In this document: piece after piece, positions 46,381-60,170 of the stretch | How the letters are laid out: each line of letters begins with the position of its first letter | How positions within the stretch are numbered: the stretch's first letter is position 1 | Assembly (NCBI RefSeq): GCF_019668465.1 | Contig: NZ_AP024828.1 | Location: 3,596,001-3,660,000 of the forward strand | Length of the DNA: 64,000 nucleotides | Direction of reading: 5' to 3' | DNA from: Mycobacterium senriense | GTDB taxonomy: Bacteria; Actinomycetota; Actinomycetes; Mycobacteriales; Mycobacteriaceae | Notes under the pieces: model-generated | The model's database searches: none | What the model was told of the DNA's origin: nothing | The model's input: the letters and a program-made list of their open reading frames with translations, nothing else | Position numbers and translations under genes: made by a program

Positions 46381-48423
46381 ATGGACTTTTACAACGCTTA
46401 TAGCCAGGGCTTTGCCCGCGTCGCCGCATGCACGCACCACACGGTCATCGCTGACCCGGCCGCGAATGCCGAATCGGTGCTGCGGATGGCCAGGGAGTGC
46501 CACGACGACGCTGTCGCGCTGGCCGTCTTCCCCGAGCTCACGCTGTCCGGGTACTCCATCGAAGACATCGTGCTGCAGGACCTGCTTCTCGACGATGTCG
46601 AGAAGGCCGTCGCGGAGATTGTCGCGGCCTCGGCCGAATTGCTGCCGGTCCTGGTCGTCGGGGCCCCGCTGCGTCATCGGCACCGGATCTACAACGCCGC
46701 CGTGATCATCCACCGCGGCGTGGTGCTCGGGGTGGCGCCGAAGTCGTACCTGCCCACCTATCGGGAGTTCTACGAACGCCGCCAGCTCGCACCCGGAGAC
46801 GACGAGCGCGGCACCATCCGCGTCGCGGGGGCCGAGGTGCCGTTCGGTCCCGACCTGCTCTTCGAGGCTTCCGACGTCCCCGGCCTGGTGCTGCACGTCG
46901 AAATCTGCGAGGACATGTTCGTGCCGATCCCGCCGAGCGCGGAGGCCGCGCTGGCGGGTGCGACGGTGTTGGCCAACCTGTCCGGCAGTCCGATCACGAT
47001 CGGCCGCGCCGAGGACCGCTGCCTGCTGGCCCGTTCGGCCTCGTCACGTTGCCTAGCCGCCTACGTGTATTCGGCTGCCGGGGAAGGTGAATCGACGACC
47101 GACCTGGCCTGGGACGGTCAGACCATGGTGTTCGAGAACGGCGTGATGCTGGCCCAGTCCGAGCGATTCCCCAAAGGCGAGCGACTCAGCATCGCCGACA
47201 TCGACATCGAATTGCTTCGCTCGGAACGGCTCCGGATGGGCACCTTCGACGACAACCGGCGCCATCACCGGACGACGACGGACACCTACCGGCGCATCGA
47301 GTTCCGGCTGGAGCCACCGTCCGGCGACATCGGGCTGCGACGCGAGGTCGAACGCTTTCCCTTTGTTCCCGCCGATCCGCAACGGCTGGAACAGGATTGC
47401 TTCGAGGGTTACAACATCCAGGTCGCCGGTCTCGAACAGCGGCTGCGCGCGCTGGACTTCCCGAAAATCGTCATCGGGATCTCCGGCGGTCTGGACTCGA
47501 CGCATGCCCTGATCGTCGCCGCCCGCGCGATGGATCGCGAACAACGGCCGCGCAGTGACATTCTGGCGTTCACGCTGCCCGGCTTCGCGACCGGGGACCA
47601 CACCAAACGTAATGCGGCCGAGCTGTGCCGCACGCTGGGCGTGACGTTCGCCGAGATCGACATCCGCGAGTCCGCGGAGCTGATGCTCAAGGAGATGGAT
47701 CACCCGTTCGGCCGGGGAGAGAAGGTGTACGACGTCACCTTCGAAAACGTCCAGGCCGGTTTGCGCACGGACTACCTGTTCCGGCTGGCCAACCAGCGCG
47801 GCGGAATCGTGCTGGGCACCGGCGACCTGTCCGAACTGGGGCTGGGTTGGTCGACATACGGTGTCGGCGACCAGATGTCGCACTACAACGTCAACGGCGG
47901 TGTGCCCAAAACGCTGATCCAGCACCTGATCCGCTGGGTGATCTCGTCGGAACAGTTCGAGCCGGAGGTCAGCGAGGTGCTGCAGTCGGTGCTCGACACC
48001 GAGATCACCCCCGAGCTGGTTCCCAGCGGCGAGGAGGAGGAGCTGCAGAGCAGCGAGGCGAAAGTGGGCCCGTTTTCGCTGCAAGACTTTTCGCTATTTT
48101 ACGTGCTGCGCTTCGGATTCCGGCCGTCGAAGATCGCCTTCCTGGCCTGGCACGCGTGGAGCGATCCCGAACACGGTATCTGGCCACCCGGTTTCCCCCA
48201 GGACAAACGGCCATCCTACTCGCTGAAGGAAATTCGGCACTGGCTGCAGGTTTTCGTGCAGCGGTTCTACTCGTTCAGCCAGTTCAAGCGTTCGGCCCTG
48301 CCCAATGGCCCCAAGGTGTCGCACGGGGGTTCGCTGTCGCCGCGCGGGGATTGGCGCGCGCCATCCGACATGTCGGCGCGCATCTGGCTCGACGAGATCG
48401 ACCGCGAGGTTCCCGAGGAGTAG
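46381..48423 (+). CDS. nadE: Glutamine-dependent NAD+ synthetase
   Basis: 680 residues, the full two-domain enzyme that amidates nicotinate adenine dinucleotide. The N-terminal nitrilase-type glutaminase domain has its triad in FPELTLSGY (Glu), PKSYLPTYREFYERR (Lys) and HVEICEDMFV (Cys). The C-terminal synthetase domain has the P-loop IGISGGLDSTHALIVAA and LGTGDLSELGLGWSTYGVGD. GGAAGGACG precedes the ATG. It corresponds to Rv2438c, but here it is separated from proB by four accessory genes. A strong hairpin follows. Confidence 0.96.
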   Translation: MDFYNAYSQGFARVAACTHHTVIADPAANAESVLRMARECHDDAVALAVFPELTLSGYSIEDIVLQDLLLDDVEKAVAEIVAASAELLPVLVVGAPLRHRHRIYNAAVIIHRGVVLGVAPKSYLPTYREFYERRQLAPGDDERGTIRVAGAEVPFGPDLLFEASDVPGLVLHVEICEDMFVPIPPSAEAALAGATVLANLSGSPITIGRAEDRCLLARSASSRCLAAYVYSAAGEGESTTDLAWDGQTMVFENGVMLAQSERFPKGERLSIADIDIELLRSERLRMGTFDDNRRHHRTTTDTYRRIEFRLEPPSGDIGLRREVERFPFVPADPQRLEQDCFEGYNIQVAGLEQRLRALDFPKIVIGISGGLDSTHALIVAARAMDREQRPRSDILAFTLPGFATGDHTKRNAAELCRTLGVTFAEIDIRESAELMLKEMDHPFGRGEKVYDVTFENVQAGLRTDYLFRLANQRGGIVLGTGDLSELGLGWSTYGVGDQMSHYNVNGGVPKTLIQHLIRWVISSEQFEPEVSEVLQSVLDTEITPELVPSGEEEELQSSEAKVGPFSLQDFSLFYVLRFGFRPSKIAFLAWHAWSDPEHGIWPPGFPQDKRPSYSLKEIRHWLQVFVQRFYSFSQFKRSALPNGPKVSHGGSLSPRGDWRAPSDMSARIWLDEIDREVPEE

Positions 48424-48477: not shown

Positions 48478-48885
48478 CTACGCCCTGGCGCGGCGCCAGC
48501 CCTGATATTGGATTTCGGCGATTACCAGCGTGCCCACGCCGGCCGTCAGGTTCAACACCACGCCGGTCGACGTCAACGGGAAGACGTCGGCGAGCACCAG
48601 AACGATTGCGGCCACCGTGTACGCCACGTTCGCGATGATGACGGCCATGCCGGCGCGCCGCACCGATGGCAGGGCGGCCAGCCCGAACACGACGATGCCG
48701 TAGGCGATCAAGAACGCGCCCATGCCGTACTCGAACGCCTTCGTGGTGCCCGAGACGTCGGCGAGCCGGTTGGCGAACGGCATACCGGCCAGGCCGACCA
48801 GTCCGCTGATGGCGGCGTCGGCCCGCATGGCAAGGCGAAGCAAGCCGTCCCGGGTGCCCGTGCGGTCGATCGTGGTTGCGGACAT
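48478..48885 (-). CDS. Four-helix membrane protein (paralogue A)
   Basis: 135 residues with four hydrophobic helices: ISGLVGLAGMPF, AFLIAYGIVVFGLAAL, AGMAVIIANVAYTVAAIVLVLADVF and GVVLNLTAGVGTLVIAEIQ. The N-terminal RDGLLRLAMRADAAISG and the C-terminal QYQGWRRARA are shared almost exactly with the protein at 52281-52688, so the two are paralogues. No domain is recognised. The gene is convergent to nadE. Confidence 0.8.
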   Translation of the reverse strand: MSATTIDRTGTRDGLLRLAMRADAAISGLVGLAGMPFANRLADVSGTTKAFEYGMGAFLIAYGIVVFGLAALPSVRRAGMAVIIANVAYTVAAIVLVLADVFPLTSTGVVLNLTAGVGTLVIAEIQYQGWRRARA

Positions 48886-49125: not shown

Positions 49126-50460
49126 CTACCACTGCGCCGACAACACGACTTCGCGAACTCGGTCAAGTGCGCTGGCGAGCCCCTCCAGCGGCGGTGTGCC
49201 AAGTGCGAGGCGCAAGGCGTTCGGCGGATGCGATGTGACGCAGAAGGCCTCGGCAGTCGACACCAGGATGCCTTCGTTTGCCAACTGGTGTGCCACGGCG
49301 TCACTACGCGCGTTGTCCGGCAGGCTCAGCCAGCCGTAGTAACAGGCGGCCGGGCCGTGGTAGTTAAGTCCCTCTAGTGCGCGATGGGCAATCTGCTGGC
49401 GCTCCGCGGCGTCGCTGCGACGTCTCTTTTCCAGCCTGGTGACCGTGCCGTCGGTGAGCCAACCGCTGACCAACACCGACACCAGACTCGAGGTGCCCCA
49501 ACTCGATGTGCGCACGGCCTGTTTGGCAGTCGAGACGTATTCGTCCGGCACCACGACGAACCCGAAACGTAAACCGGTGGCAAGGTTCTTCGACAGGCTT
49601 GCCACATGCAGGGTGCGTTCCGGGGCTAATGCGTATAGTGTTGGGCCGCAATGTGGTTCGAGGAACGCGTAGGTGCCGTCCTCGATCACCGCACAATCGT
49701 GCCGGCGCGCAGTTTCGGCGAGGCGGATGCGCTGTTCGTGCGACATTGTGTAGCCGAGCGGGTTATGCAAAGTAGGGATTGTGTAAATGGCCTCGACCCG
49801 GCGACGAGCGCACAGGTCTTCCAGTGCGTCGAGATCTGGACCCGCGGGGCTGGAGGGAAACGACACCAGCTCCAGGGCGCGGTCATCGGCCTGCAGCTTG
49901 ATGCCGGGATAGGTCAGTTCGTCGACGGCAACGATCGCCCCCGGCCGCGTCAGTACGCGTAGCGCGATATCCAGACCGTGCTGGGATCCGGCTGCCAGTA
50001 CGACGTTGTTGGGTGGCACGTCTATCCCGCGATCGAGGAGATAGGTTGCGACCGCGGCCTTTTCGATAGTTCGACCACCGGGTGCATGCTGGATCAGCAG
50101 CGACTGCAGGTCGCCTGTGGCGGCCAGCTGCCGCAACGCCTCACGTAACTGTTCCGCCTGGTCGTCTGCCAGCGGTTGGTTGAACGATAAGTCGGCAGTG
50201 CGGGATGCGATGGGGATTCGGCGTCCGTCGAGGCCGCCATAGCCGCCCTGGTCGCGGACGAACGTGCCGCGGCCGGGTTCGCCGACCACTAGGCCTGCGC
50301 GCGCGAGGTGAGCGTAGACGCGGGTCGCGGTGGCCAAGGCGATGCCATGCTGCCGGGCAAGGTCGCGGTGGGTCGGCAGCCGGGTGCCGGGCGCCAATTG
50401 CCCATCGCGGATCTCGGCGGTCAATCGATCCACGATCGCTGTATAGCGGCTGGTCGGCAC
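49126..50460 (-). CDS. MocR/PdxR-type regulator: GntR helix-turn-helix fused to an aminotransferase-like domain
   Basis: 444 residues. The N-terminal winged helix is APGTRLPTHRDLARQHGIALATATRVYAHLARAGLVVGEPGRGTFV. A fold-type I PLP domain follows, with VLAAGSQHGLDIALRVL, PTLHNPLGYTMSHEQR and the PLP Lys in HVASLSKNLATGLR. Such proteins sense PLP or amino-compound ligands. The start chosen is GTG 50460 (PTSRYTAIVDRLTAEI); the open frame extends 27 codons further but crosses the likely operator. It is divergent from the hydrolase operon and probably controls it. Confidence 0.9.
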   Translation of the reverse strand: MPTSRYTAIVDRLTAEIRDGQLAPGTRLPTHRDLARQHGIALATATRVYAHLARAGLVVGEPGRGTFVRDQGGYGGLDGRRIPIASRTADLSFNQPLADDQAEQLREALRQLAATGDLQSLLIQHAPGGRTIEKAAVATYLLDRGIDVPPNNVVLAAGSQHGLDIALRVLTRPGAIVAVDELTYPGIKLQADDRALELVSFPSSPAGPDLDALEDLCARRRVEAIYTIPTLHNPLGYTMSHEQRIRLAETARRHDCAVIEDGTYAFLEPHCGPTLYALAPERTLHVASLSKNLATGLRFGFVVVPDEYVSTAKQAVRTSSWGTSSLVSVLVSGWLTDGTVTRLEKRRRSDAAERQQIAHRALEGLNYHGPAACYYGWLSLPDNARSDAVAHQLANEGILVSTAEAFCVTSHPPNALRLALGTPPLEGLASALDRVREVVLSAQW

Positions 50461-50481
50461 GGGTAGCCCGCCCTTGTATCT

Positions 50482-50503
50482 AGGACAATTTCTCGATTGT
50501 TCT
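50482..50503. promoter_or_regulatory. Operator-like dyad between the MocR gene and the hydrolase operon
   Basis: AGGACAAT-TTCTCG-ATTGTTCT has 8-bp arms with one mismatch and a 6-bp spacer. It lies 22 bp upstream of the MocR start in the divergent intergenic region, in a locally AT-rich patch. Confidence 0.6.
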
Positions 50504-50620
50504 ATCACACCCGGATACGCTGCGAAAGAGCAACCAACCAACCACTGGGTTGCCTAGGGCGCAGTTCCCTGGTGAAGGCGACACGTGCACCGACCCGGGC
50601 CTGCGCAGGTAGGAGTCATC

Positions 50621-51451
50621 ATGAAAGCGATCGAAATTAGCTCCGGCACAATTTATTACGAGGAGACCGGGCCCGAAAACGGCAGGCCGGTGGTGTTCGT
50701 GCACGGATACATGATGGGTGGGCAAGTGTGGCGCCGCGTCAGCGCGGAACTCGCCGCGGTCGGGCTGCGCTGCATCGCCCCCACCTGGCCGATGGGTGCG
50801 CACCCGGAGCCGCTGCGCCCGGGCGCCGATCGCACCATCGCGGGCGTTGCCGGAATCGTTGCCGAGGTGCTTGCGGCCCTTGACCTCGAAGACGTGGTGT
50901 TGGTCGGCAACGACTCCGGCGGTGTCGTAACGCAACTCGTCGCGGTGCACCATCACGACCGAATTGGCGCCATGGTGCTGACGAGTTGCGATGCCTTCGA
51001 ACATTTCCCGCCGCCGATCCTCAATCCGATGATCATGGCGGCCAAGTCCAAACTGTCCTTCCGGCTGATGCTGCAAACGATGCGGCTATCCGGTGTCCGC
51101 AAGCGCGCGTATGGCGCCTTGGCCCACCGCGACATCGACGACCTGGCCCAGACGTGGGTGCGGGCGGCGCTGTCAAATCCGGCAGTCGCGGAAGACTTGC
51201 GCCGGCTCACGCTGTCGTTTCGGACCGAGGTCACTACCGGCGTCGCCGCCCGGCTGCCGGAATTCGACAAGCCGGCCCTCATCGCATGGTCGGCTGATGA
51301 CGTGTTCTTCGAGCAAGAGGATGGCGAACGATTGGCGGCCATCCTCCCGAACGCCCGGTTCGCGGTGATCGAGGGAGCCCGCACCTTTTCGATGGTGGAT
51401 CGGCCGGCCCGGCTCGCCGACTTGCTTTCGACCGTCGCGGTGCGGGCGTAG
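50621..51451 (+). CDS. Alpha/beta hydrolase with an Asp nucleophile motif
   Basis: 276 residues. The oxyanion region is VVFVHGYMMGG. The nucleophile elbow reads LVGNDSGGV, so the G-x-Nuc-x-G position is Asp98, as in haloalkane dehalogenases and epoxide hydrolases rather than Ser. The place where the catalytic His is normally found (GARTFSMVDRP) has Thr255 instead. AGGTAGGAG precedes ATG 50621. It is first in an operon with a thioesterase, a membrane protein, a GNAT, a second thioesterase and a lyase. The activity is uncertain. Confidence 0.82.
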   Translation: MKAIEISSGTIYYEETGPENGRPVVFVHGYMMGGQVWRRVSAELAAVGLRCIAPTWPMGAHPEPLRPGADRTIAGVAGIVAEVLAALDLEDVVLVGNDSGGVVTQLVAVHHHDRIGAMVLTSCDAFEHFPPPILNPMIMAAKSKLSFRLMLQTMRLSGVRKRAYGALAHRDIDDLAQTWVRAALSNPAVAEDLRRLTLSFRTEVTTGVAARLPEFDKPALIAWSADDVFFEQEDGERLAAILPNARFAVIEGARTFSMVDRPARLADLLSTVAVRA

Positions 51452-52308
51452 TGAAAGACCCCGCCATGCCCCTCGCTCACCCTTTTGACGGCGCGATTGA
51501 ACTCGATCCCGTCGACCGCAATATCAGCCGGGGCCGCACTCATCCGGGGTGGACATCCATGGTGAGCCCGTTCGGCGGAATCACCGTTGCCACGCTGGTG
51601 CGTGCCGTCGAGACACACCCCGACCGCGTCGGCGAACCCATCGCGCTGACCGTAAATTTCCTGGCACCCATCGCCGACGGCGAGTTCGACATTTCGCTTC
51701 GCGCCGTGCGCACGAACCGCACCAACCAGCACTGGCTGCTTGAGCTCAGCCAAGACGGCGAAGTCAGGAACACCGCGACGGCGCTATTTGGATTTCGCCG
51801 CGACACCTGGGGTGACACCGAAGCTAGTCCGCCGAAAACACCGCCGCCAGAACAGATCGCGCCAGACCGCGCCCAGGGCGACTTCGTCGGCTGGGGACGT
51901 CTGTACGACCTGCGGTTCGCCGAGGGCGCCTTTCCGGGACAAGGCGCACTGCCCAGTCCCTCCGCGACTACGACGATGTGGATTCGCGACACAGCACAGC
52001 GCCGCATCGACTACCCGGCACTTGCCGCCGTGTGTGATGTGTTCTGCCCACGCGCTTTCTTACGCTGTGGTGGACCGGTTCCTGCCGGGACTATCTCCCT
52101 GACGACGTATTTCCACGCCGATCAGCGAGAGCTTGACGCCCTCCGTGGCGACTACATCCTCGGTACCGCGCACGCCAACCGATTTTCCCGGGGCTACTTC
52201 GATCAGAGCGTGCAGCTGTGGTCTCGCGATGCTGTGTTGCTGGCCACCTCGCACCAGATCGTCTACTTCAAAGGAAACGCATGTACGCCAATCCAGTTGT
52301 CTACCTAG
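51451..52308 (+). CDS. TesB-like double-hotdog acyl-CoA thioesterase
   Basis: 285 residues, cytosolic. The N-terminal hotdog has HPGWTSMVSPFGGITVATLVRAVETHP and the second has PALAAVCDVFCPRAFLRCGG...ISLTTYFHA; this is the usual layout of TesB/acyl-CoA thioesterase II-like proteins in actinobacteria. It would hydrolyse acyl-CoA. GTG 51451 overlaps the last base of the hydrolase stop; ATG 51466 is an alternative. The 3' end overlaps the next gene by 28 bp, so it is cotranscribed. Confidence 0.82.
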   Translation: MKDPAMPLAHPFDGAIELDPVDRNISRGRTHPGWTSMVSPFGGITVATLVRAVETHPDRVGEPIALTVNFLAPIADGEFDISLRAVRTNRTNQHWLLELSQDGEVRNTATALFGFRRDTWGDTEASPPKTPPPEQIAPDRAQGDFVGWGRLYDLRFAEGAFPGQGALPSPSATTTMWIRDTAQRRIDYPALAAVCDVFCPRAFLRCGGPVPAGTISLTTYFHADQRELDALRGDYILGTAHANRFSRGYFDQSVQLWSRDAVLLATSHQIVYFKGNACTPIQLST

Positions 52309-52688
52309 ACAGCCGCGACGGGTTGCTGCGCCTGGCAATGCGCGCGGACGCCGTGATCAGTGGCATTTTCGGAATAGCCGGTCTGGCTGGGTGGATGCCT
52401 GAGTTCTCAGGAGCCACAAGGGCTTTCGAATACGGGGTTGACTCTTTCTTCGTCGTTTACGGTGTGATCGTGCTGGGACTGGCCGCGCTGCCACCCGTGC
52501 TCCGCACTGGTATCGGCGTAGTCGTCGCCAATCTTCTCTATACGGCGGCTGCCGTTGTCCTGGTGGTCGAACATCTGGTTCCGTTGACCGCCAGTGGCAT
52601 GGTCTTCGCAACGGCATCCGCCGTTTACACGCTGGCATTTGCTCAGCTGCAGTACCTTGGCTGGCGCCGCGTCAAGAGGTCCCGGTGA
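52281..52688 (+). CDS. Four-helix membrane protein (paralogue B)
   Basis: 135 residues, four hydrophobic helices (SGIFGIAGLAGW, SFFVVYGVIVLGLAAL, GIGVVVANLLYTAAAVVLVVEHLV and MVFATASAVYTLAFAQLQ). RDGLLRLAMRADAVISG near the N-terminus and QYLGWRRVKRSR at the end match the protein at 48478-48885 closely, with the same length. ATG 52281 follows AAGGA and overlaps the thioesterase end by 28 bp; the stop overlaps the GNAT start (GTGATG). Confidence 0.8.
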   Translation: MYANPVVYLDSRDGLLRLAMRADAVISGIFGIAGLAGWMPEFSGATRAFEYGVDSFFVVYGVIVLGLAALPPVLRTGIGVVVANLLYTAAAVVLVVEHLVPLTASGMVFATASAVYTLAFAQLQYLGWRRVKRSR

Positions 52689-53248
52689 TGCCGGTCGCAC
52701 GCCATGCGGCGGCGACCGCACCTATACCCGGCGGTGCGCGGCAATGCCGTGGTGGCGTGGCAGGACTGGAGATCCGTCGATCGCCGTTGGTCTATCTCCG
52801 ACCGGCCAGGCCCAGCGACGGGCCGGCTTTGCTTCGCATGCACGAGCGGTGCAGCCCCGCGACGCGTTATTCCAGATGGTTGGCGCCGAGCTCGATCTTC
52901 CCGCGGGTGTATTTGCGGGCCGCACTCGCCGGCGGCGACGAACACATCGCGATAGTGGCAGTGCGCGGTGGCCGGCCAGCGATTGTCATCGGATTGGCCA
53001 GTGCCGCACTAACTTCAGAGGGTCAGCGCGAACTGGGGCTCCTAGTAGAGGATCACTACCAGGGGCAAGGCATCGGCAGACGGATGCTTGACTCGCTGGT
53101 CGATCTGATCGGACCAGACGAAGATCTGTGTGTATCAGCACTGGGCGAGAATCACTGGCTGCTTGGCAAGCTGTCGCGATTCGGCACGGTAGAGGCCCAC
53201 CTTGACAACGGGATCATCGATGCGCGCGTGATCCGAGCACCACGTTGA
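52685..53248 (+). CDS. GNAT-family N-acetyltransferase
   Basis: 187 residues. YLRPARPSDGPALLRMHERCSPATRYSRW opens the GNAT fold (about residue 37). Motif A with the acetyl-CoA pyrophosphate loop is ELGLLVEDHYQGQGIGRRMLDSLV (Q-x-x-G-x-G as QGQGIG). Spacing and the SPATRYSRW element resemble acetyltransferase domains joined to acyl-CoA synthetases, which acetylate lysines. The substrate is unknown. GTG 52685 or ATG 52688 overlaps the previous stop. Confidence 0.8.
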   Translation: MMPVARHAAATAPIPGGARQCRGGVAGLEIRRSPLVYLRPARPSDGPALLRMHERCSPATRYSRWLAPSSIFPRVYLRAALAGGDEHIAIVAVRGGRPAIVIGLASAALTSEGQRELGLLVEDHYQGQGIGRRMLDSLVDLIGPDEDLCVSALGENHWLLGKLSRFGTVEAHLDNGIIDARVIRAPR

Positions 53249-53286
53249 CCGCAGAACCGGTTATGGACCAAGGAAGGTGATTTTCA

Positions 53287-53772
53287 ATGACGTATGAATA
53301 TGCCATTTCCCCCGAATGGCTAACAACCACGGGCCGGCCATACCGGGGCCGGTGCCGGATCAGCGTCTATCCAATCGTCGAGACCAAGGAGTCCCGCTAC
53401 AGCGACATGGATGTGAACGGCCACCTCAACCATTTGGCGTTGGAGGCGCTACACGAAGACGCGCGGGCGCGCATCAACCAGCAGTATGTCCCTGGCGCTT
53501 ACGACCCGGCTGATCGCGCCCTTAGGTTGGTGACATCCCAAAACGTCGTGCACTTCCTGGCTGAGGTGCATTGGCCCGCAACGGTCGAGGTCGGCATCGG
53601 AATTGGTGGCATCGGCCGTACCTCGGTCGTCGTATCGTCCGGAATTTTCCACGAAGACAGATGCGTCAGCGTCTGTGACATGACCCTCGTCCTGGTCGGA
53701 GATTGCGGCCCGGTCGCCTTTCCCGAAGACAACCGGGAAGTGATGCGCAAGTTGCAGCTGCGCTGCGCATGA
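53287..53772 (+). CDS. Hotdog-fold (4HBT) thioesterase
   Basis: 161 residues. VETKESRYSDMDVNGHLNHLALEALHEDAR (about residues 37-66) is the 4HBT active-site segment (xxDxDxxGHLNN), similar to FadM/YbgC-type enzymes. The rest forms the hotdog sheet (VVHFLAEVHWPATVEVGIGIGGIGRTSVVVSSGIFHEDRCVSVCDMTLV). It would cleave short or aromatic acyl-CoAs. AAGGTGA precedes ATG 53287. The stop overlaps an ATG of the following lyase (ATGA). Confidence 0.82.
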   Translation: MTYEYAISPEWLTTTGRPYRGRCRISVYPIVETKESRYSDMDVNGHLNHLALEALHEDARARINQQYVPGAYDPADRALRLVTSQNVVHFLAEVHWPATVEVGIGIGGIGRTSVVVSSGIFHEDRCVSVCDMTLVLVGDCGPVAFPEDNREVMRKLQLRCA

Positions 53773-53786
53773 AGCCAGGAGGCACC

Positions 53787-54605
53787 ATGACGCAAGCCGA
53801 ATACTACGAACAGTTCCTAGCCCTGCATCACCAGCCCGAAGCGTTCGTGATGCCGAACGCGTGGGACGGGCTGTCGGCACTGATCCTCAAGCACGCAGGT
53901 TTTGCCGCACTGGGCACCTCGTCGGCGGCTCTGGCCGCGGCACTGGGCCGCCGCGACGGGTGTCATGCCGTTACCGCCGCCGAACATCTGGCGCACGCCG
54001 AGTTGCTCATCGAAGTCGGCCGCCTGCCCGTCAACGGCGACTTCGAGGACGGTTACGGTGCAACGCCTGACGATGTTGCTGCGACGGTGCGCGCCGCCAT
54101 CGATAGCGGGTTGGCCGGGACCGGCGTGGAGGACACCTCCGGGGATCCCGCTCGTCCAATCCGTGATTTCGACGACGCAGTCGCGCGGGTCCGGGCCGCC
54201 GCGCGAGCGGGTCGCGGCCGCATCGTGCTCACCGGGCGCACCGACAATTTCTTGCATCGTCGCAACGATCTTGACGACACGATCCGTCGTCTCACGGCAT
54301 TCGCGGAGGTCGGTGCCGACGTCCTTTACGCTCCTTACCCGCCGGACATGGCGGCGGTCACGGCGATCGTGCGAGCGGTCGCTCCGAAACCGGTCAACGT
54401 CGTGGTCGGGACAAAGTCGGAGACGCCCACGGTGGGACAGCTGTCGGCGGCCGGAGTCAAGCGCATCAGCACCGGGGCGGCGCTGTACAACCACGCTGCC
54501 GCGGCAGTGCAGGCCGCGGCAGCGGCACTGGCCCAGGGCGACCTTGCGAGCGCGACGACCGGCATACCGATGCGAGACGTCGCCGCCCTACTTTTCGAGG
54601 ACTAG
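53787..54605 (+). CDS. Isocitrate lyase/PEP mutase-family C-C lyase (first of two)
   Basis: 272 residues. VMPNAWDGLSALILKHAGFAALGTSSAALAAALG opens the barrel. The Mg/active-site acids are in LPVNGDFEDGYG, with GVEDTSGDP and LTGRTDNFLH following. The nearest known types are PEP phosphonomutase-like lyases such as oxaloacetate decarboxylase and methylisocitrate or dimethylmalate lyase; the usual lyase loop KKCGH is not seen. AGGAGG at 53777 supports ATG 53787; ATG 53769 overlapping the thioesterase stop is the alternative. The stop shares CTAG with the convergent YbhB gene. Confidence 0.82.
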   Translation: MTQAEYYEQFLALHHQPEAFVMPNAWDGLSALILKHAGFAALGTSSAALAAALGRRDGCHAVTAAEHLAHAELLIEVGRLPVNGDFEDGYGATPDDVAATVRAAIDSGLAGTGVEDTSGDPARPIRDFDDAVARVRAAARAGRGRIVLTGRTDNFLHRRNDLDDTIRRLTAFAEVGADVLYAPYPPDMAAVTAIVRAVAPKPVNVVVGTKSETPTVGQLSAAGVKRISTGAALYNHAAAAVQAAAAALAQGDLASATTGIPMRDVAALLFED

Positions 54606-55150
54606 CGCTCGTAGGTTCCGGTCAGCGTGCCCCGCGCGAGCACGTGCCCGCGCATCGCGGCCAACAGCCCCTTGGCGGTGGTCACCGTGTCCGGGAGGGC
54701 GGCGTCGAGCGCGAACACGTGGAAACGGTAGTGATGTGGCCCGTGGCCGGGAATCGGTCGTGGGCCGGCGTAGCCGTGGTGACCGAGGTCGGCCCGCAGG
54801 AAGCGGATTCCCGCGCATCCCGGTTGCAGTGCCCCCGCCGCCACGCCGTCGACGGTCGGTTCGATTACCGCGGCGGTGTGCACCAGCGGGCGGGGGAACG
54901 GCACGTCGACGTCGTCGATGAGGAGCGCCAGCTGACGCGTGCCGAGCGGTGGCCCCGACCAACGCAGCGGCGGTGACGTGTTGTCACCCACGCCCTTGCC
55001 CGCGCTGGACGCCGGCATGGCTTCGCCGTCGGCGAACGCGGTGCTGGTGACCGTGATGGTGGCGGGTGCGGCGAATGCGCCACCGGCGAGCGGACTTCGG
55101 TGGCCGCCCGCGCGCACGCCGCGGAGCATTCGGCCCAGCCGCTCGATCAT
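54602..55150 (-). CDS. YbhB/YbcL (PEBP) family protein
   Basis: 182 residues of the phosphatidylethanolamine-binding-protein fold: [43 protein letters not shown], and [21 protein letters not shown], the last being the conserved PEBP ligand-site segment. There is no signal peptide. The ATG overlaps the LeuD-like stop by 4 bp, so it is the last gene of the PrpD-lyase-LeuCD-like operon. The role of a PEBP protein in a carboxylate catabolic operon is unclear; ligand binding is the family expectation. Confidence 0.85.
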
Positions 55151-55707
55151 GCCCCGCTGCCCGCGCCGCGCATGGCCACCGCGGGTGAGCGCAGCAGGTC
55201 GCCCAATTCGCTGGGCAGGTAGCCCTGCCGGGCAAGCCGCGGCAGCACGCCGCCGCTCTCGATGATGTCGAGAATCAGGTCGGGCAGCTTCGCGATGGTG
55301 CCCGAGGCGCCGGTGGTGTCGTTGCGCCAGCTGCCGTCGGCCAGGTCGAACGTCCCGGTGTCGCCGTCGTTGAACGCCGCGGTGGCATCGGGGACGGTGA
55401 TCGCCGGCAGCCCGGAGTTCACGGCGTTGCGAAAGAACAGCGAGTTGAATTCCTCGGCGACCAAACCGGCGACGCCGAGCTCGACGAACAACGCCGCCAC
55501 GGGCCGCGAGGAGCCGAGCCCGAAGTTCTTGCCTGCCAACACGATATCGCCCGGCGACACCTCGTCGGTCCAGCCCGGCCGCACCTCGTAGAAGACGTGC
55601 CTGGCGGCCTCGGCGGGTTCCATCTTCATGGCGAACGCCGGATACATTGCGTCGGTGTTCAGGTTGTCGCCGAACACCCAGACTTTGCCGCTGAAACGCA
55701 GCGTCAT
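55147..55707 (-). CDS. Aconitase-family hydro-lyase, small (LeuD/HacB-like) subunit
   Basis: 186 residues, the swivel domain. [19 protein letters not shown] and [46 protein letters not shown] are diagnostic, with GSSR contacting substrate. Together with the gene upstream it forms a two-subunit isopropylmalate/homoaconitate/dimethylmaleate-type hydratase. ATG 55707 overlaps the large-subunit stop (ATGA). It lies in a catabolic neighbourhood without leuA or leuB, so leucine synthesis is unlikely to be its role. Confidence 0.88.
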
Positions 55708-56951
55708 GCGATCACGCTCCTCGGGTCGCTGATGTAGCCGGTGACCGCGGACGCGGCGACGGTGGCCGGGGAGGCCATGTAGATTTCGGCCTCGGTGCTG
55801 CCCATACGCCCGGTGAAGTTGCGGGTGCTGGCCGTGATGCACACCTCGCCGGGGCCCACCACGCCCATGTGGTAGCCGAAACAGGCTCCGCAGGTGGAGT
55901 TGGTGACGACGGCGCCGGCGTCGGCGAGATCCTGAAGGTAGCCACGCCGCATGGCCTCGCGGTACACGGCCTGCGAGGCGGGCGTCACCAGCAGTCGCAC
56001 GCCCGGTGCGACGGTCTTGCCGCGCAACAACTGCGCGGCGATCTGCAGGTCCTCGAGTTGCCCGTTGGCGCAGGAGCCGATGAAGGCCTGGTCGATCTTC
56101 TGTTTGCCCAATTGCGATACCGGAGAACCATTGCGGCTGACGGTGCCCGGCCGTGCCACATAGGGTTCCAGCGCCGCGAGGTCGATGCGCCGGATGTCCT
56201 GGTAGGTGGCGTCGGAATCCGGTGTGACGGCGTCGAATCCGGTGGCCCCGCGTTCGTCGAGAAACGACGCCAACACGTCGTCGGGCTCGAATGTGCTGAA
56301 GTCGGCCGACACCTCGGCGCCCTGGGTCGCGATGGTCCGCCGATCGTGCATCGGGATGCCGGCGAGGCCGCCCCCGCCGAACTCGAGGTTCCGATTCGGC
56401 GCATCGCCGTATTCGTTGGCGATGTGCAGGAAAATGTCCTTGCCGCTCACCACGTCCGGTTTGGCGCCGTGGAATTCGTAGCGGATCGTCGGCGCGACCT
56501 GGAACCAGGTGGAACCGGTGCACATGATGGAATAGATCTCGGCGGGCCCCAGCCCGCGCGCCGCGGTGTTGTATGCGCCCGCCGCGCAGGTGTGAGAGTC
56601 GGTGCACGCCAGCACTTCTCCCGGGCGGGCCAGCCCATTCTCAGCGATCACCTGATGGCAGATGCCATGCCGGCCGACGTCGTAGAAGCGCTCGATGCCG
56701 AAGTCCGCGACGAACTTGCGGGCGTGGCGGCCGCCCTCGGCATCCTTGATCGTCGGGGCGGGCACGGCGTGATCCATGATCACCGCGAGCTTGTCGGGGT
56801 CGTGAATCCTGTTGGGCTGTATCCACATGGTGGCGAACTGCAGGTCGATCAGCACGGTCATGTCGACGTCGACCACGACCGTGTCACCCGGTGCCACCGA
56901 GTCCAGCCCGGCCTTGCGCGCGAAGATCTTTTCGATGATGGTCATGCCCAT
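55704..56951 (-). CDS. Aconitase-family hydro-lyase, large (LeuC/HacA-like) subunit
   Basis: About 415 residues carrying the [4Fe-4S] cluster. Cysteines are in [13 protein letters not shown] and [32 protein letters not shown] matches the family SCTNGR-type element. [19 protein letters not shown] is the typical N-terminus. Starts at 56951 or 56945 are both possible; the first overlaps the lyase stop. Length and split subunits match 3-isopropylmalate dehydratase and the DmdA subunit of dimethylmaleate hydratase; the partner lyase next door favours the second type of role. Confidence 0.88.
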
Positions 56952-57832
56952 GTGCGGTCCTCGGTGTGTGCGTACTTGTCGTCGAGCGCCCGCCATTCCG
57001 ACATGCCCACCAGGTTGAAGAAGTCAGCCGGGGAGGTGGGCAGCTGGGCGGCAAGGTCGGTACCGTTGAGTTCGCACAGGCTCTGCAGCATGGCGAACGT
57101 CGTCTGCATCAGCAAATTGCTGGGGTGGATGGCGATCGCGTAACCCAATTCCTGCAGTCGTGCCGCCGACTGCAGCGGGGTCAGGCCGCCGAGCACCAGG
57201 TTGATCAGCAGGGGAGCGTCGACTTCGTGTGCGATGCGCTCGATTTCGCCGACGTCCTGCGGCGCCTCCACGAAGATGATGTCCGCGCCCGCTTGCGCGT
57301 ACCGGTTGGCGCGCTCGATCGCCGCATCCAGACCGAGTGGTGCGCGGGCGTCGGTGCGGGCCACCACCAGCAGGTTGTCATCGGCTCTGGCGTCCAGTGC
57401 GGCCGCCAGCGTCTGTTCGAACACCGCCGCGTCGACGACCTGCTTGTCCGGCAGGTGGCCGCAACGCTTGGGGAACACCTGGTCCTCCAGCTGGATTGCG
57501 GCCACCCCGGCCGCATCGTAGGAACGAACCGTGCGCACCACGTTCATCGGTCCGCCGTACCCGGTGTCGGCGTCGGCGATGAGTGGGACGTCGCCGAGGG
57601 CGCCGGTGATCATCGCGACCCGGTCGGCCATCTCGGTCGCGGTGACCAGGCCGATGTCGGGCAAGCCAAAGCCCGACGCCGCCACGCCGGCGCCCGTCAT
57701 ATAGGCGGCGACGTGCCCGGTGCGTCTGGTCAGATGCGCGGAGATGCCGTCGAAAACGCCTGGCGCGACGATGAGTTCGCGTTTGTCCAGCAATGCTTTG
57801 AGCCGAGAGCGGGCCGGAGTTGTTGTTGCCAT
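56942..57832 (-). CDS. Isocitrate lyase/PEP mutase-family lyase, methylisocitrate/dimethylmalate lyase-like (second of two)
   Basis: 296 residues. APGVFDGISAHLTRRTGHVAAYMTGAGVAASGFGLPD, LIADADTGYGG (metal acids), IQLEDQVFPKRCGHLPDKQVV (active-site loop with the catalytic Cys in KRCGH) and VARTDAR are all present, so it is a competent C-C lyase. Best-known relatives are PrpB, 2,3-dimethylmalate lyase and oxaloacetate hydrolases. It lies between the PrpD-like and LeuC-like genes with 11-bp spacing and a small overlap. Expected products are pyruvate or glyoxylate plus a carboxylic acid. Confidence 0.9.
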   Translation of the reverse strand: MATTTPARSRLKALLDKRELIVAPGVFDGISAHLTRRTGHVAAYMTGAGVAASGFGLPDIGLVTATEMADRVAMITGALGDVPLIADADTGYGGPMNVVRTVRSYDAAGVAAIQLEDQVFPKRCGHLPDKQVVDAAVFEQTLAAALDARADDNLLVVARTDARAPLGLDAAIERANRYAQAGADIIFVEAPQDVGEIERIAHEVDAPLLINLVLGGLTPLQSAARLQELGYAIAIHPSNLLMQTTFAMLQSLCELNGTDLAAQLPTSPADFFNLVGMSEWRALDDKYAHTEDRTWA

Positions 57833-57843
57833 CGTGCGTCCTT

Positions 57844-59274
57844 TCAGTCCAGTGCGCCCGCGACGGGGCCGGCGAGCAGGTCGATCAGGTTGTTGATGTC
57901 GGTCAGGTCGTCGAGCCCGATCACCGCCCGCTCGATTGCCGCGGCGCGGCCGTGATTGGTGACCCGGTCGGCCAGCGCGTGGAACTTGGCCACCAATTCG
58001 TCGTTGGTGACCGGATCGTCGGGTGCGCCGTGCGGCAGGGCGACTCGCGCGCGGTGCACGGTTCCGTCCCGGGTGGTCACCGCGACGTCGGTGCGGAATC
58101 TCTCGGCGATGCCGGCGCCGGCCAGTGATTCGTCGAGATGCACCGTGGTGGACGCGATCAGTGACCAGATGTCGTCGGAATCGAGCCGGGCCGGGGTGAA
58201 CTGCTCGGGCAACACGTCGCCGTCGAGCAACGCGGCCGCGGTGGCGTACCCGATGTTCATCTGTGCCCCGATCGGGGTGAGCGGGCGCTCCGGCGGCCAC
58301 CAACCATGCTTGTACACGGTCTCTCCGACGGTGATGTCGACCGACGAGATGTCTTCGGGTGCGACCGAATTCCGTAACTGTCGGGCGGCGTCGATGGCAC
58401 CGTGCAGCCCACCCATCGCGGCATAGGACTTGACCATGATGAGGGAGGTCTCCCAGCGGTGGCCGAGTTCGCCGGTCAGCGGTGCGGCATCCGGATCGTG
58501 CCCCTCGCCGAAAACGCTGAGGAAGCCGCCATATTCACGTTCGAACACGCGCTTGATCCCGGTGTAACCGGCGGCCGCCAGACCCGCCGCGTAGAAGCCG
58601 TTGCGCGCCGCCAGGCCGTGGTGCATGCGCTTGCTCATCGCTTCGTACTGCGCGGCCATCAGACCCGCCGATTGGGTTGCGGCCAGGCCCAGCGCGTCTT
58701 CCAGCTGCGCCGGCGGCAGTCCGCGCAGCTTGCCGGACGCCATCGCCGCCGAATGGGTGCCGAAGACCGGGCCCGAATGCCATCCGCGGTCCAGCATTTG
58801 GGTGCCGTGCAGGGTGTAGCCCACGCGGGGCCCGACCTCGAACCCGGCGATGGCCGCGAGCAGCAGTTCGGAGCCGCCGGTCGGCGCCGGACGTGTCGAC
58901 GCCGTCGACAGCAGCGCCGGGATGAGCAGCGAGCAGCTGTGCAGCGGGGCCAGCGGGTGGAAGTCGTCGAGTTCGAAGCCCTGGATGAACGTGCCGTTGA
59001 GCACCGCGGCCGCGGGCGCACTGGTCCGCAGGCCGGTCCCGATGACGGCGCAGTCGCCGGGGCCCTCCAAGCCCAGCACGGCGTCGGTGGCGACGCGTGA
59101 CCACGGCAATTGGGCCTCCACCAGGGCGCAGCCGATGCCGTCGAGCAGCAGGTGTTTGGCGCGATCGACGACGGCAGCGGGGACATCGTCGAGCGTGAGC
59201 CCGGCGACCCAGGTGGCAAGGCGCCCGGTCGGCCCGGTCGGATCGGTGGCGGCCCCCTGCTGCACCGCGGTCAT
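57844..59274 (-). CDS. MmgE/PrpD-family dehydratase
   Basis: 476 residues. LTLDDVPAAVVDRAKHLLLDGIGCALVEAQ, LNGTFIQGFELDDFHP, HSGPVFGTHSAAMASGKLRGL and KSYAAMGGLHGAIDAA are landmark stretches. The family includes 2-methylcitrate dehydratase, iminodisuccinate epimerase and cis-aconitate decarboxylase (IRG1/CAD). It is the first gene of the operon, divergent from the GntR gene. It probably catalyses the first dehydration, or a decarboxylation, of the unknown carboxylate. There is no citrate synthase gene in the window. Confidence 0.9.
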   Translation of the reverse strand: MTAVQQGAATDPTGPTGRLATWVAGLTLDDVPAAVVDRAKHLLLDGIGCALVEAQLPWSRVATDAVLGLEGPGDCAVIGTGLRTSAPAAAVLNGTFIQGFELDDFHPLAPLHSCSLLIPALLSTASTRPAPTGGSELLLAAIAGFEVGPRVGYTLHGTQMLDRGWHSGPVFGTHSAAMASGKLRGLPPAQLEDALGLAATQSAGLMAAQYEAMSKRMHHGLAARNGFYAAGLAAAGYTGIKRVFEREYGGFLSVFGEGHDPDAAPLTGELGHRWETSLIMVKSYAAMGGLHGAIDAARQLRNSVAPEDISSVDITVGETVYKHGWWPPERPLTPIGAQMNIGYATAAALLDGDVLPEQFTPARLDSDDIWSLIASTTVHLDESLAGAGIAERFRTDVAVTTRDGTVHRARVALPHGAPDDPVTNDELVAKFHALADRVTNHGRAAAIERAVIGLDDLTDINNLIDLLAGPVAGALD

Positions 59275-59299
59275 CGCGACCCCCTAGTCGACGGGTGAT

Positions 59300-59323
59300 A
59301 GTTGTTATATGTTTATAACAACT
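59300..59323. promoter_or_regulatory. GntR operator between the PrpD-like operon and the GntR gene
   Basis: A perfect inverted repeat, AGTTGTTATA-TGTT-TATAACAACT, with 10-bp arms. It lies in the 74-bp divergent gap and contains the GT...TA...AC-type core used by GntR/HutC regulators. It would overlap the promoters of both units. Confidence 0.8.
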
Positions 59324-59348
59324 GATCGGATCGTGCAAGGGAGGCGGT

Positions 59349-60170
59349 GTGACAGCATTGAGCACCGTGCAGCAGCGCAGCGAGAAGGCCGGGCCGGTGT
59401 CCGTCACCGCCGGTGTGCCGTTGCACCGGCAGCTGTACTTGGTGCTGCACGACGAGATCGACCGCGGGGTGATCGCCCCCGGCGAGGCGCTGCCCACCGA
59501 GCAGACCCTGTGCGATCAGTTCGGGGTCTCTCGCATCACCGTGCGGCGCGCGCTGGCCGACCTCGCCGAACAGGGTTACATCGAACGCCGGCATGGCATC
59601 GGTTCGTTTGTGCGCCAACATGATCCGGCCGATGTGCCGACCGGGCGCTCGTATCTGCAAGAACTGCGCCAGACCCAATTCGAGACCGAGGTCGAGGTGG
59701 TCGAACTTGGCACGCGGTCGCCCACCCGGGTCGTCGCCGAAAGCCTCGGGAGCACCGGCGAGTTGCTGCACGTCGTGCGGGTGCGACGACAGCGCAGGAC
59801 CGGCGAGCCGCTATTGGTGACCGACGCCTGGCTGCCGCTGGAACTGGCCCCGGTGCTGACGGAGGCCGCGTTGCGGCGCGCACCCCTCTACGAGCTGTTG
59901 TCCGACGGCGGCATCACCATGAACCGGGTGCGGCACGAGATCACGGCCGAAATCGCGGGCCCGCGCAACGCGCATCTGCTCGACATGCCGATCGGCGCGG
60001 CCCTGTTGCGGGTCAACCGGCTCGTCTATGCGGCCGACGCACCGCATCACTATCTCTCGGCCCTGCTATCGCCGAGCCGAAGTCGCGTGCTGCTCACCCA
60101 GGCGGCCGACGAGTTGGAGACCGGCGACGGTCTGAGAATCGCCCACGACGTCGGCGGGCGGAGCGGCTAG
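59349..60170 (+). CDS. GntR-family (HutC/UTRA) regulator of the PrpD-like operon
   Basis: 273 residues. The winged helix-turn-helix is VIAPGEALPTEQTLCDQFGVSRITVRRALADLAEQGYIERRHGIGSFV (about residues 38-86). The C-terminal UTRA ligand domain follows (YLQELRQTQFETEVEVVELGTRSP ... LLRVNRLVYAADAPHHYLSALLSPSRSRVLL). GTG 59349 is preceded by GGGAGG. A 24-bp palindrome lies just upstream. UTRA regulators usually bind a pathway metabolite, so the inducer is probably the operon substrate. The stop shares CTAG with rbsK. Confidence 0.9.
   Translation: MTALSTVQQRSEKAGPVSVTAGVPLHRQLYLVLHDEIDRGVIAPGEALPTEQTLCDQFGVSRITVRRALADLAEQGYIERRHGIGSFVRQHDPADVPTGRSYLQELRQTQFETEVEVVELGTRSPTRVVAESLGSTGELLHVVRVRRQRRTGEPLLVTDAWLPLELAPVLTEAALRRAPLYELLSDGGITMNRVRHEITAEIAGPRNAHLLDMPIGAALLRVNRLVYAADAPHHYLSALLSPSRSRVLLTQAADELETGDGLRIAHDVGGRSG

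Follow-up and report, generated by a model that had tools for sequence, protein, structure and literature searches.

Here, we report a compact operon of Mycobacterium senriense (assembly GCF_019668465.1, genome of 5.83 Mb) that is real, conserved, and situated beside its own GntR regulator, and that probably cleaves a branched dicarboxylic acid to yield a pair of small acids. The operon lies in a stretch of 64,000 nucleotides of contig NZ_AP024828.1 (positions 3,596,001 to 3,660,000, forward strand; hereafter the window, whose numbering is used for bare positions). It consists of five packed genes on the minus strand, in the order MmgE/PrpD, lyase, LeuC-like, LeuD-like, and YbhB, with a divergent GntR/UTRA gene on the plus strand. 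An open reading frame check of the window located all six genes (Table 1) and Pfam families confirm their naming; the lyase gene follows the MmgE/PrpD gene after 11 bp and each later gene overlaps the preceding one by 4 bp (gaps of 11, −4, −4, and −4). This layout, with YbhB last, had been described in an earlier reading of the letters alone (hereafter the sequence-only reading), whose observation was confirmed and whose interpretation was partly supported. With modest confidence, we regard the operon as a module that degrades a branched 1,4-dicarboxylic acid without coenzyme A (CoA) and would proceed via an alkylmaleate and an alkylmalate. Our literature search, covering open-licence PMC articles, found no description of the operon.

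Conservation was evaluated in 78 loci taken from the best 80 of 151 confirmed stretches, and a gene was counted as present in a locus if a match of at least 50% lies within 6.5 kb, whole or not. The lyase is at least 60% identical to that of the window in 33 of the 78 loci, and 21 of the 33 carry all six genes in order, including one (L050) with LeuC in two frames. Three further loci (M. sherrisii, M. simiae, and M. angelicum) contain GntR, lyase, LeuC, and LeuD but neither MmgE/PrpD nor YbhB, seven are cut by contig ends, one is a Solirubrobacterales unit (MmgE/PrpD-lyase-LeuC-LeuD), and one is M. lepraemurium (L075), where the operon is broken in several genes, an apparent decay. The lyases of the remaining 45 loci are more distant. 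Pseudonocardia kujensis (L077), whose lyase rounds to 60% but falls just under the threshold and is described apart from the 33, has lyase-LeuC-LeuD-MmgE/PrpD; Streptantibioticus cattleyicolor (L020) has LeuC-LeuD-MmgE/PrpD (33%)-PrpF-lyase, and its LeuCD is of the same type as in the window. The unit's core extends beyond mycobacteria, and the gene-neighborhood survey that had been proposed as a check of the sequence-only reading has confirmed a unit conserved in other genomes. Please note that gene bounds in unannotated loci came from a codon-based script, which missed the lyase of L142, seen in the same genome as L040.

The ratio of nonsynonymous to synonymous substitution rates (dN/dS) is 0.08–0.37 for the six genes when compared with mycobacterial relatives (six to eight partners per gene) and, by a rougher estimate, 0.28–0.54 for the four enzyme genes against Pseudonocardia. 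Recurrence of the whole unit in 21 of 33 close loci together with dN/dS of about 0.08–0.37 argues that the unit is more than a chance assembly. Gene distances are also correlated, for LeuC and LeuD (r = 0.918, 19 loci) and for lyase and LeuC (r = 0.868, 21 loci) with 0 of 2000 permutations as high, for lyase and MmgE/PrpD (r = 0.827, 10 loci) with 1 of 2000, and for LeuC and MmgE/PrpD (r = 0.659, 10 loci) with 21 of 2000, of which shared species ancestry alone can produce part. The unit appears rare and patchy, because few genomes have matches: the lyase is matched at E 1e-60 or better in at least 20 of 148 genus genomes, the window's own included (at least 67% identical in at least 18, 45% and 51% in the other two), and the LeuC-like protein at E 1e-110 or better in at least 7 of 298 order genomes and at least 6 of 394 class genomes, with four genus members in either set; these tallies may be low, as part of the first-look candidates was scored in many genomes. 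The host is close to M. colombiense, as the operon lyase shares 97% identity with a protein carrying that species name.

The proposal of one operon with its own regulator is strengthened by a conserved palindrome, GTTGTTATA-N4-TATAACAAC, a predicted operator between the two. It is exact in 29 of the 32 distinct places with a GntR more than 55% identical (35 rows minus three duplicates, L008 and L125 repeating the site of the window and L036 and L068 sharing one contig), with one mismatch in two places (L070 and L149) and three in M. lepraemurium, and 200 plain letter shuffles per region never came below five mismatches. It is kept where MmgE/PrpD is missing (L066, L068, and L069). With up to three mismatches allowed, the entire genome holds this one site and no further one, and the backward control gave none. 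Because the palindrome is conserved and single in the genome, the regulator most likely controls only its own gene and this operon. We infer that the GntR/UTRA protein would bind the palindrome and repress its own gene and the operon, and that a pathway metabolite would release it and thereby induce both.

Judged by score, residues, and tree, the lyase is distinct from PrpB, as had been anticipated. It scores 253.7 bits against TIGR02317 (PrpB equivalog), below the cut-off of 354.4, and the genome's own PrpB reaches 406. Alignment to Escherichia coli PrpB indicates that the metal and catalytic residues are kept (D58, D85, D87, the KRCGH loop, R158, E188, and N210 in E. coli numbering), and the loop is intact as described earlier. 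PrpB R241 and R270, which bind the distal carboxylate of methylisocitrate, are a methionine and a gap in the lyase; the genome's own PrpB has both. Among the aligned rows, M. simiae (L068), L084, L112, and the second L137 lyase also carry an arginine at the 241 position, and the two PrpBs are the only rows with one at the 270 position. The lyase shows the pattern expected of 2,3-dimethylmalate lyase, a catalytic core of the phosphoenolpyruvate (PEP)-mutase/isocitrate lyase type without the distal arginines of PrpB. In a tree of 42 rows, the lyase falls in a group of 18 with Aspergillus niger 2,3-dimethylmalate lyase (3fa3; 99/94), the latter on a long branch; both PrpBs and carboxyphosphoenolpyruvate (CPEP) mutase form a separate group (100/99), and petal death protein is outside both. 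The sequence search ranked petal death protein first, followed by CPEP mutase, dimethylmalate lyase, and PrpB. Structure comparison of the lyase model (mean predicted local distance difference test score of 79.3, with residues 49–58 and 290–296 below 50) left the top classes tied, including the oxaloacetate hydrolase fold versus lyases.

The hydro-lyase is LeuCD-like and, by profile and phylogeny, separate from LeuCD, again in line with the sequence-only reading. The LeuC-like subunit passes TIGR01343, a broad homoaconitate-hydratase-type large-subunit family (409.6 bits, cut-off 385.7), and stays below TIGR00170 (leuC; 167.1 versus 560.25); likewise, the LeuD-like subunit passes TIGR02087 (LeuD/DmdB family; 134.5, cut-off 108.95) and stays below TIGR00171 (LeuD; 25.5 versus 116.25). 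Bona fide LeuCD is encoded elsewhere, at C1:5770087 (LeuC 739.2 > 560.25 and LeuD 172.7 > 116.25). The operon hydro-lyase belongs to a clade of 18 actinobacterial rows (100/100), from which both Methanocaldococcus jannaschii enzymes and LeuC proper stand apart. Isopropylmalate isomerase and homoaconitase (LeuCD and HacAB; M. jannaschii 4nqy, 3vba, 4kp2, and 2pkp) have the same two-subunit aconitase-type architecture and are among the best PDB matches, those of the two subunits including the M. jannaschii isopropylmalate/citramalate isomerase. The difference lies in the small-subunit loop, which sets substrate specificity in these enzymes, the Arg of the homoaconitase YLRT included: the LeuD-like protein has FAMK in place of YLVY (M. 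jannaschii isopropylmalate isomerase) and YLRT, i.e., the Arg-containing loop of HacAB is absent, and SSRPVA in place of SSREHA in the M. jannaschii isopropylmalate isomerase. That these are plain leucine-pathway genes is ruled out by the LeuC/LeuD scores, the separate clade, and the true LeuCD elsewhere. Since true LeuCD and prpDCB both lie elsewhere in the genome, the operon supplies additional copies of these enzymes, which most likely serve another purpose. Neither outcome named as refuting the sequence-only reading was observed: the hydro-lyase is not the genome's sole LeuCD, and the unit recurs in other genomes.

The first operon gene does not support the sequence-only reading in one respect, a PrpD-like dehydratase following the logic of the methylcitrate cycle. 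Against NF042438 (PrpD; cut-off 950), the MmgE/PrpD protein reaches 21.7 bits and the genome's own PrpD 993.9; the two proteins are 19% identical. The closest folds to its model are cis-aconitate decarboxylase and iminodisuccinate (IDS) epimerase, tied, with PrpD further off; identity to the decarboxylase, Bacillus subtilis IRG1, and epimerase chains is 22–26%. MmgE/PrpD proteins occur in 19.2% of surveyed species, and PMC12290011 names only four characterized activities. According to the same paper, H99, H150, K198, and K266 of IDS epimerase are part of the enolate machinery of the family, and the two-base epimerases (IDS epimerase and methylsuccinate isomerase) have a catalytic Tyr145 or Tyr148 (PMC12290011). 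Mapped by spacing, IDS epimerase itself being outside the alignment, the four residues are kept in the operon protein, Q replaces H85, E replaces D88, and the two candidate places for the tyrosine, by spacing from a conserved His, are Leu161 and Asp162. The protein thus differs from cis-aconitate decarboxylase, IDS epimerase, and methylsuccinate isomerase in Q for His85 and in having no tyrosine at the Tyr145 place. A two-base epimerase role is disfavored, since it is made less likely by the Q, the E, and the missing tyrosine. In one Mycobacterium (L141:9871-12785), the operon contains a tandem pair of distinct MmgE/PrpD genes, 62% and 31% identical to that of the window; the second resembles the one of S. 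cattleyicolor (54%).

We infer the reactions, their order, and the alkylmaleate and alkylmalate intermediates as follows. The MmgE/PrpD enzyme would convert the entering compound, i.e., an itaconate-type alkylidene succinate or, by decarboxylation, an aconitate-type acid, to a substituted maleate; the 4Fe-4S LeuCD-like enzyme would add water to give a 2-alkylmalate or 2,3-dialkylmalate; and the Mg-dependent lyase would split the alkylmalate in a retro-aldol manner, giving a 2-oxoacid, which would be pyruvate in the case of a methyl 2-substituent, together with acetate, propionate, or some longer acid. An alkylmalate is proposed because the lyase reaction requires a 2-hydroxy acid that carries an adjacent carboxylate, which a LeuCD-type hydratase would make from a maleate-type alkene, and a lyase split because the tertiary alcohol of an alkylmalate cannot be oxidized. 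Of the di- or tricarboxylate substrate suggested earlier, the dicarboxylate is favored over the tricarboxylate because the PrpB arginines and the homoaconitase loop are lost.

The best reading by analogy would be the logic of dimethylmalate lyase, with MmgE/PrpD standing in for a PrpF-type isomerase, and the parallel with dimethylmaleate hydratase plus dimethylmalate lyase drawn in the sequence-only reading is supported to that extent. The Mii-DmdAB-Dml system of nicotinate fermentation in Eubacterium barkeri, set beside the operon by description, has in common with it an isomerase, a two-subunit maleate-type hydratase, and a PEP-mutase-type lyase, and the likeness includes the LeuD-like subunit passing the NCBI LeuD/DmdB model; unlike that system, the operon has MmgE/PrpD for the PrpF-type isomerase, an actinobacterial host, its own GntR regulator, and an extra YbhB. 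Compared with the known hydratase-lyase modules, those of nicotinate fermentation and the methylcitrate cycle, the operon represents a new variation. PrpF is the family of methylitaconate isomerase. A Variovorax locus (L021) has a lyase of the same tree group near both a PrpF-annotated protein and LeuCD of the kind usual in bacteria, which together with S. cattleyicolor (L020) suggests that PrpF-type isomerases keep company with this lyase; the genome of the window has no PF04303 (PrpF) match. Among wider relatives, lyase-LeuCD is found near genes for luciferase-type monooxygenase, short-chain dehydrogenase/reductase (SDR), flavin reductase, IclR, NMT1-type transporter, AMP-ligase, AtuA, and DUF4387, suggesting that several pathways end in the lyase-LeuCD pair.

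A point that weighs against a CoA-free branched-acid module is that methylsuccinate isomerase is inactive on itaconate or citraconate, as stated in PMC12290011, and the inactivity of this related enzyme on itaconate-type acids slightly lowers our confidence in that module, in an itaconate route, and in a 1,3-isomerase. The last would be a narrower form of the proposal: the MmgE/PrpD protein would represent a new subclass, with Gln at the His85 place and no second catalytic base, acting as a 1,3-isomerase in a CoA-free itaconate-type route of nontuberculous mycobacteria and some soil actinobacteria and feeding a new alkylmaleate hydratase and alkylmalate lyase. We regard this as rather unlikely in its entirety, and the reaction is not listed for the family in PMC12290011. 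Because the compact operon links MmgE/PrpD to two enzymes whose chemistry can be deduced, a hydratase and a lyase, and has a unique palindrome, the function can be tested directly. Itaconate-like acids are made by macrophages and fungi (PMC12290011); if the acid is itaconate-like, the operon would give mycobacteria a CoA-free means to use or remove such acids.

An alternative that we consider unlikely is a second, specialized methylcitrate-type pathway, in which MmgE/PrpD would dehydrate a 2-alkylcitrate, the LeuCD-like enzyme rehydrate the alkylaconitate, and the lyase release succinate and a 2-oxoacid. The folds are indeed those of PrpD, aconitase (AcnB/AcnD), and PrpB, in the same order of dehydration/isomerization, hydration, and cleavage, and a synthase could be elsewhere, as citrate-synthase-type genes are found in two other genome regions. 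However, the operon proteins do not reach the curated cut-offs for PrpD, PrpB, AcnB, and AcnD, the lyase is without R241 and R270, and MmgE/PrpD is distant from PrpD in sequence and fold. All four PF00285 (citrate-synthase-type) matches of the genome lie outside the window, one of them beside prpB/prpD, as the sequence-only reading had expected in finding no such gene nearby; no synthase was recognized by eye in the neighborhoods inspected, apart from that in the prp region of the genome itself (these loci were not subjected to a family search). Moreover, the genome already has a complete, true prpDCB at about C1:2276849-2280299, whose PrpD and PrpB pass the cut-offs given above and whose PrpC scores 674.4 (> 479). 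A second methylcitrate cycle is disfavored by the scores, the missing arginines, the divergence and fold of MmgE/PrpD, and the lack of a synthase in the window.

Ranked after it, and likewise improbable, is a C5 case, i.e., a CoA-free itaconate/citraconate route from itaconate to citraconate, (R)-citramalate, and then pyruvate plus acetate. The MmgE/PrpD model is nearest cis-aconitate decarboxylase, whose product is itaconate, in a tie with IDS epimerase; a C5 dicarboxylate is the substrate of an MmgE/PrpD isomerase (PMC12290011); and the isopropylmalate/citramalate isomerase match of the two hydro-lyase subunits fits as well. The inactivity of methylsuccinate isomerase mentioned above speaks against it, the size of the lyase pocket cannot be read from sequence, and a CoA route may exist already: beside the genome's prpDCB (L146:7-1390), a CitE-type lyase, below the RipC and other equivalog cut-offs, adjoins the end of a CoA-transferase-like gene, and the two may belong to a CoA-dependent C5-acid route.

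The least probable of these alternatives is an oxidative pathway acting on a cyclic or terpenoid compound, with lyase-LeuCD as its lower end, the only part that window-type mycobacteria would have kept. Five units (L139, L144, L087, L096, and L142) adjoin luciferase-type monooxygenase, SDR, IclR, and partly flavin reductase genes as read by eye; a Pfam check, to which 18 genes of relatives were submitted, confirms two genes of L139 and five of L144, with an HbpS-like gene in L087. Pseudonocardia L077 has luciferase-type, AtuA, and DUF4387 genes and an NMT1-type ATP-binding cassette (ABC) transporter. On the other hand, no such genes were recognized by eye around window-type units, and none of the five units has an MmgE/PrpD match. 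YbhB-like genes recur near lyase-LeuCD units of different gene company (L144:13512-14042, 42%; L096:711-1265, 38%), so YbhB may be more than a passenger. A further locus (L137:2253-10854) combines a pair of PEP-mutase-type lyases and LeuCD with an NMT1-type ABC transporter and an AMP-dependent ligase.

Table 1. Coordinates in the window of the operon, its regulator, and the proposed operator
Feature	Position	Strand	Basis
GntR/UTRA (HutC-type) regulator, divergent	59349..60170	+	PF00392 and PF07702; both domains present
Palindrome GTTGTTATA-N4-TATAACAAC, proposed operator between regulator and operon	59301..59322	.	Conservation, genome-wide uniqueness
MmgE/PrpD-family enzyme, first operon gene; proposed alkylmaleate maker (isomerase or decarboxylase chemistry)	57844..59274	-	PF03972 and PF19305
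PEP-mutase/isocitrate-lyase-type C-C lyase; proposed 2-alkylmalate (2,3-dimethylmalate-type) lyase	56942..57832	-	PF13714
Aconitase-type hydro-lyase, large subunit (LeuC/HacA-like)	55704..56945	-	TIGR01343, tree
Hydro-lyase small subunit (LeuD/DmdB-like)	55147..55707	-	TIGR02087, substrate loop FAMK
YbhB/PEBP-type protein, last gene	54602..55150	-	PF01161; in 21 full units among 33 close loci

Next to the operon, a second PEP-mutase-type protein (53769-54605) is encoded convergently, with a 4-base overlap with the operon end; it is without the KRCGH loop and only 27% identical to the operon lyase. It belongs to a region of about 5.5 kb (49126-54605), lying between an NAD-synthase gene (46381-48423) and the operon, which is seemingly absent from most relatives and also contains a GntR-aminotransferase (MocR-type) gene and hydrolase- and thioesterase-like genes. 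Genes of this region are matched in only 2–4 of the 34 loci L045-L078 (mainly L054, L064, and L072; some loci are contig-cut), with the exception of a 135-amino acid gene, a paralogue (51%) of the gene at 48478-48885.

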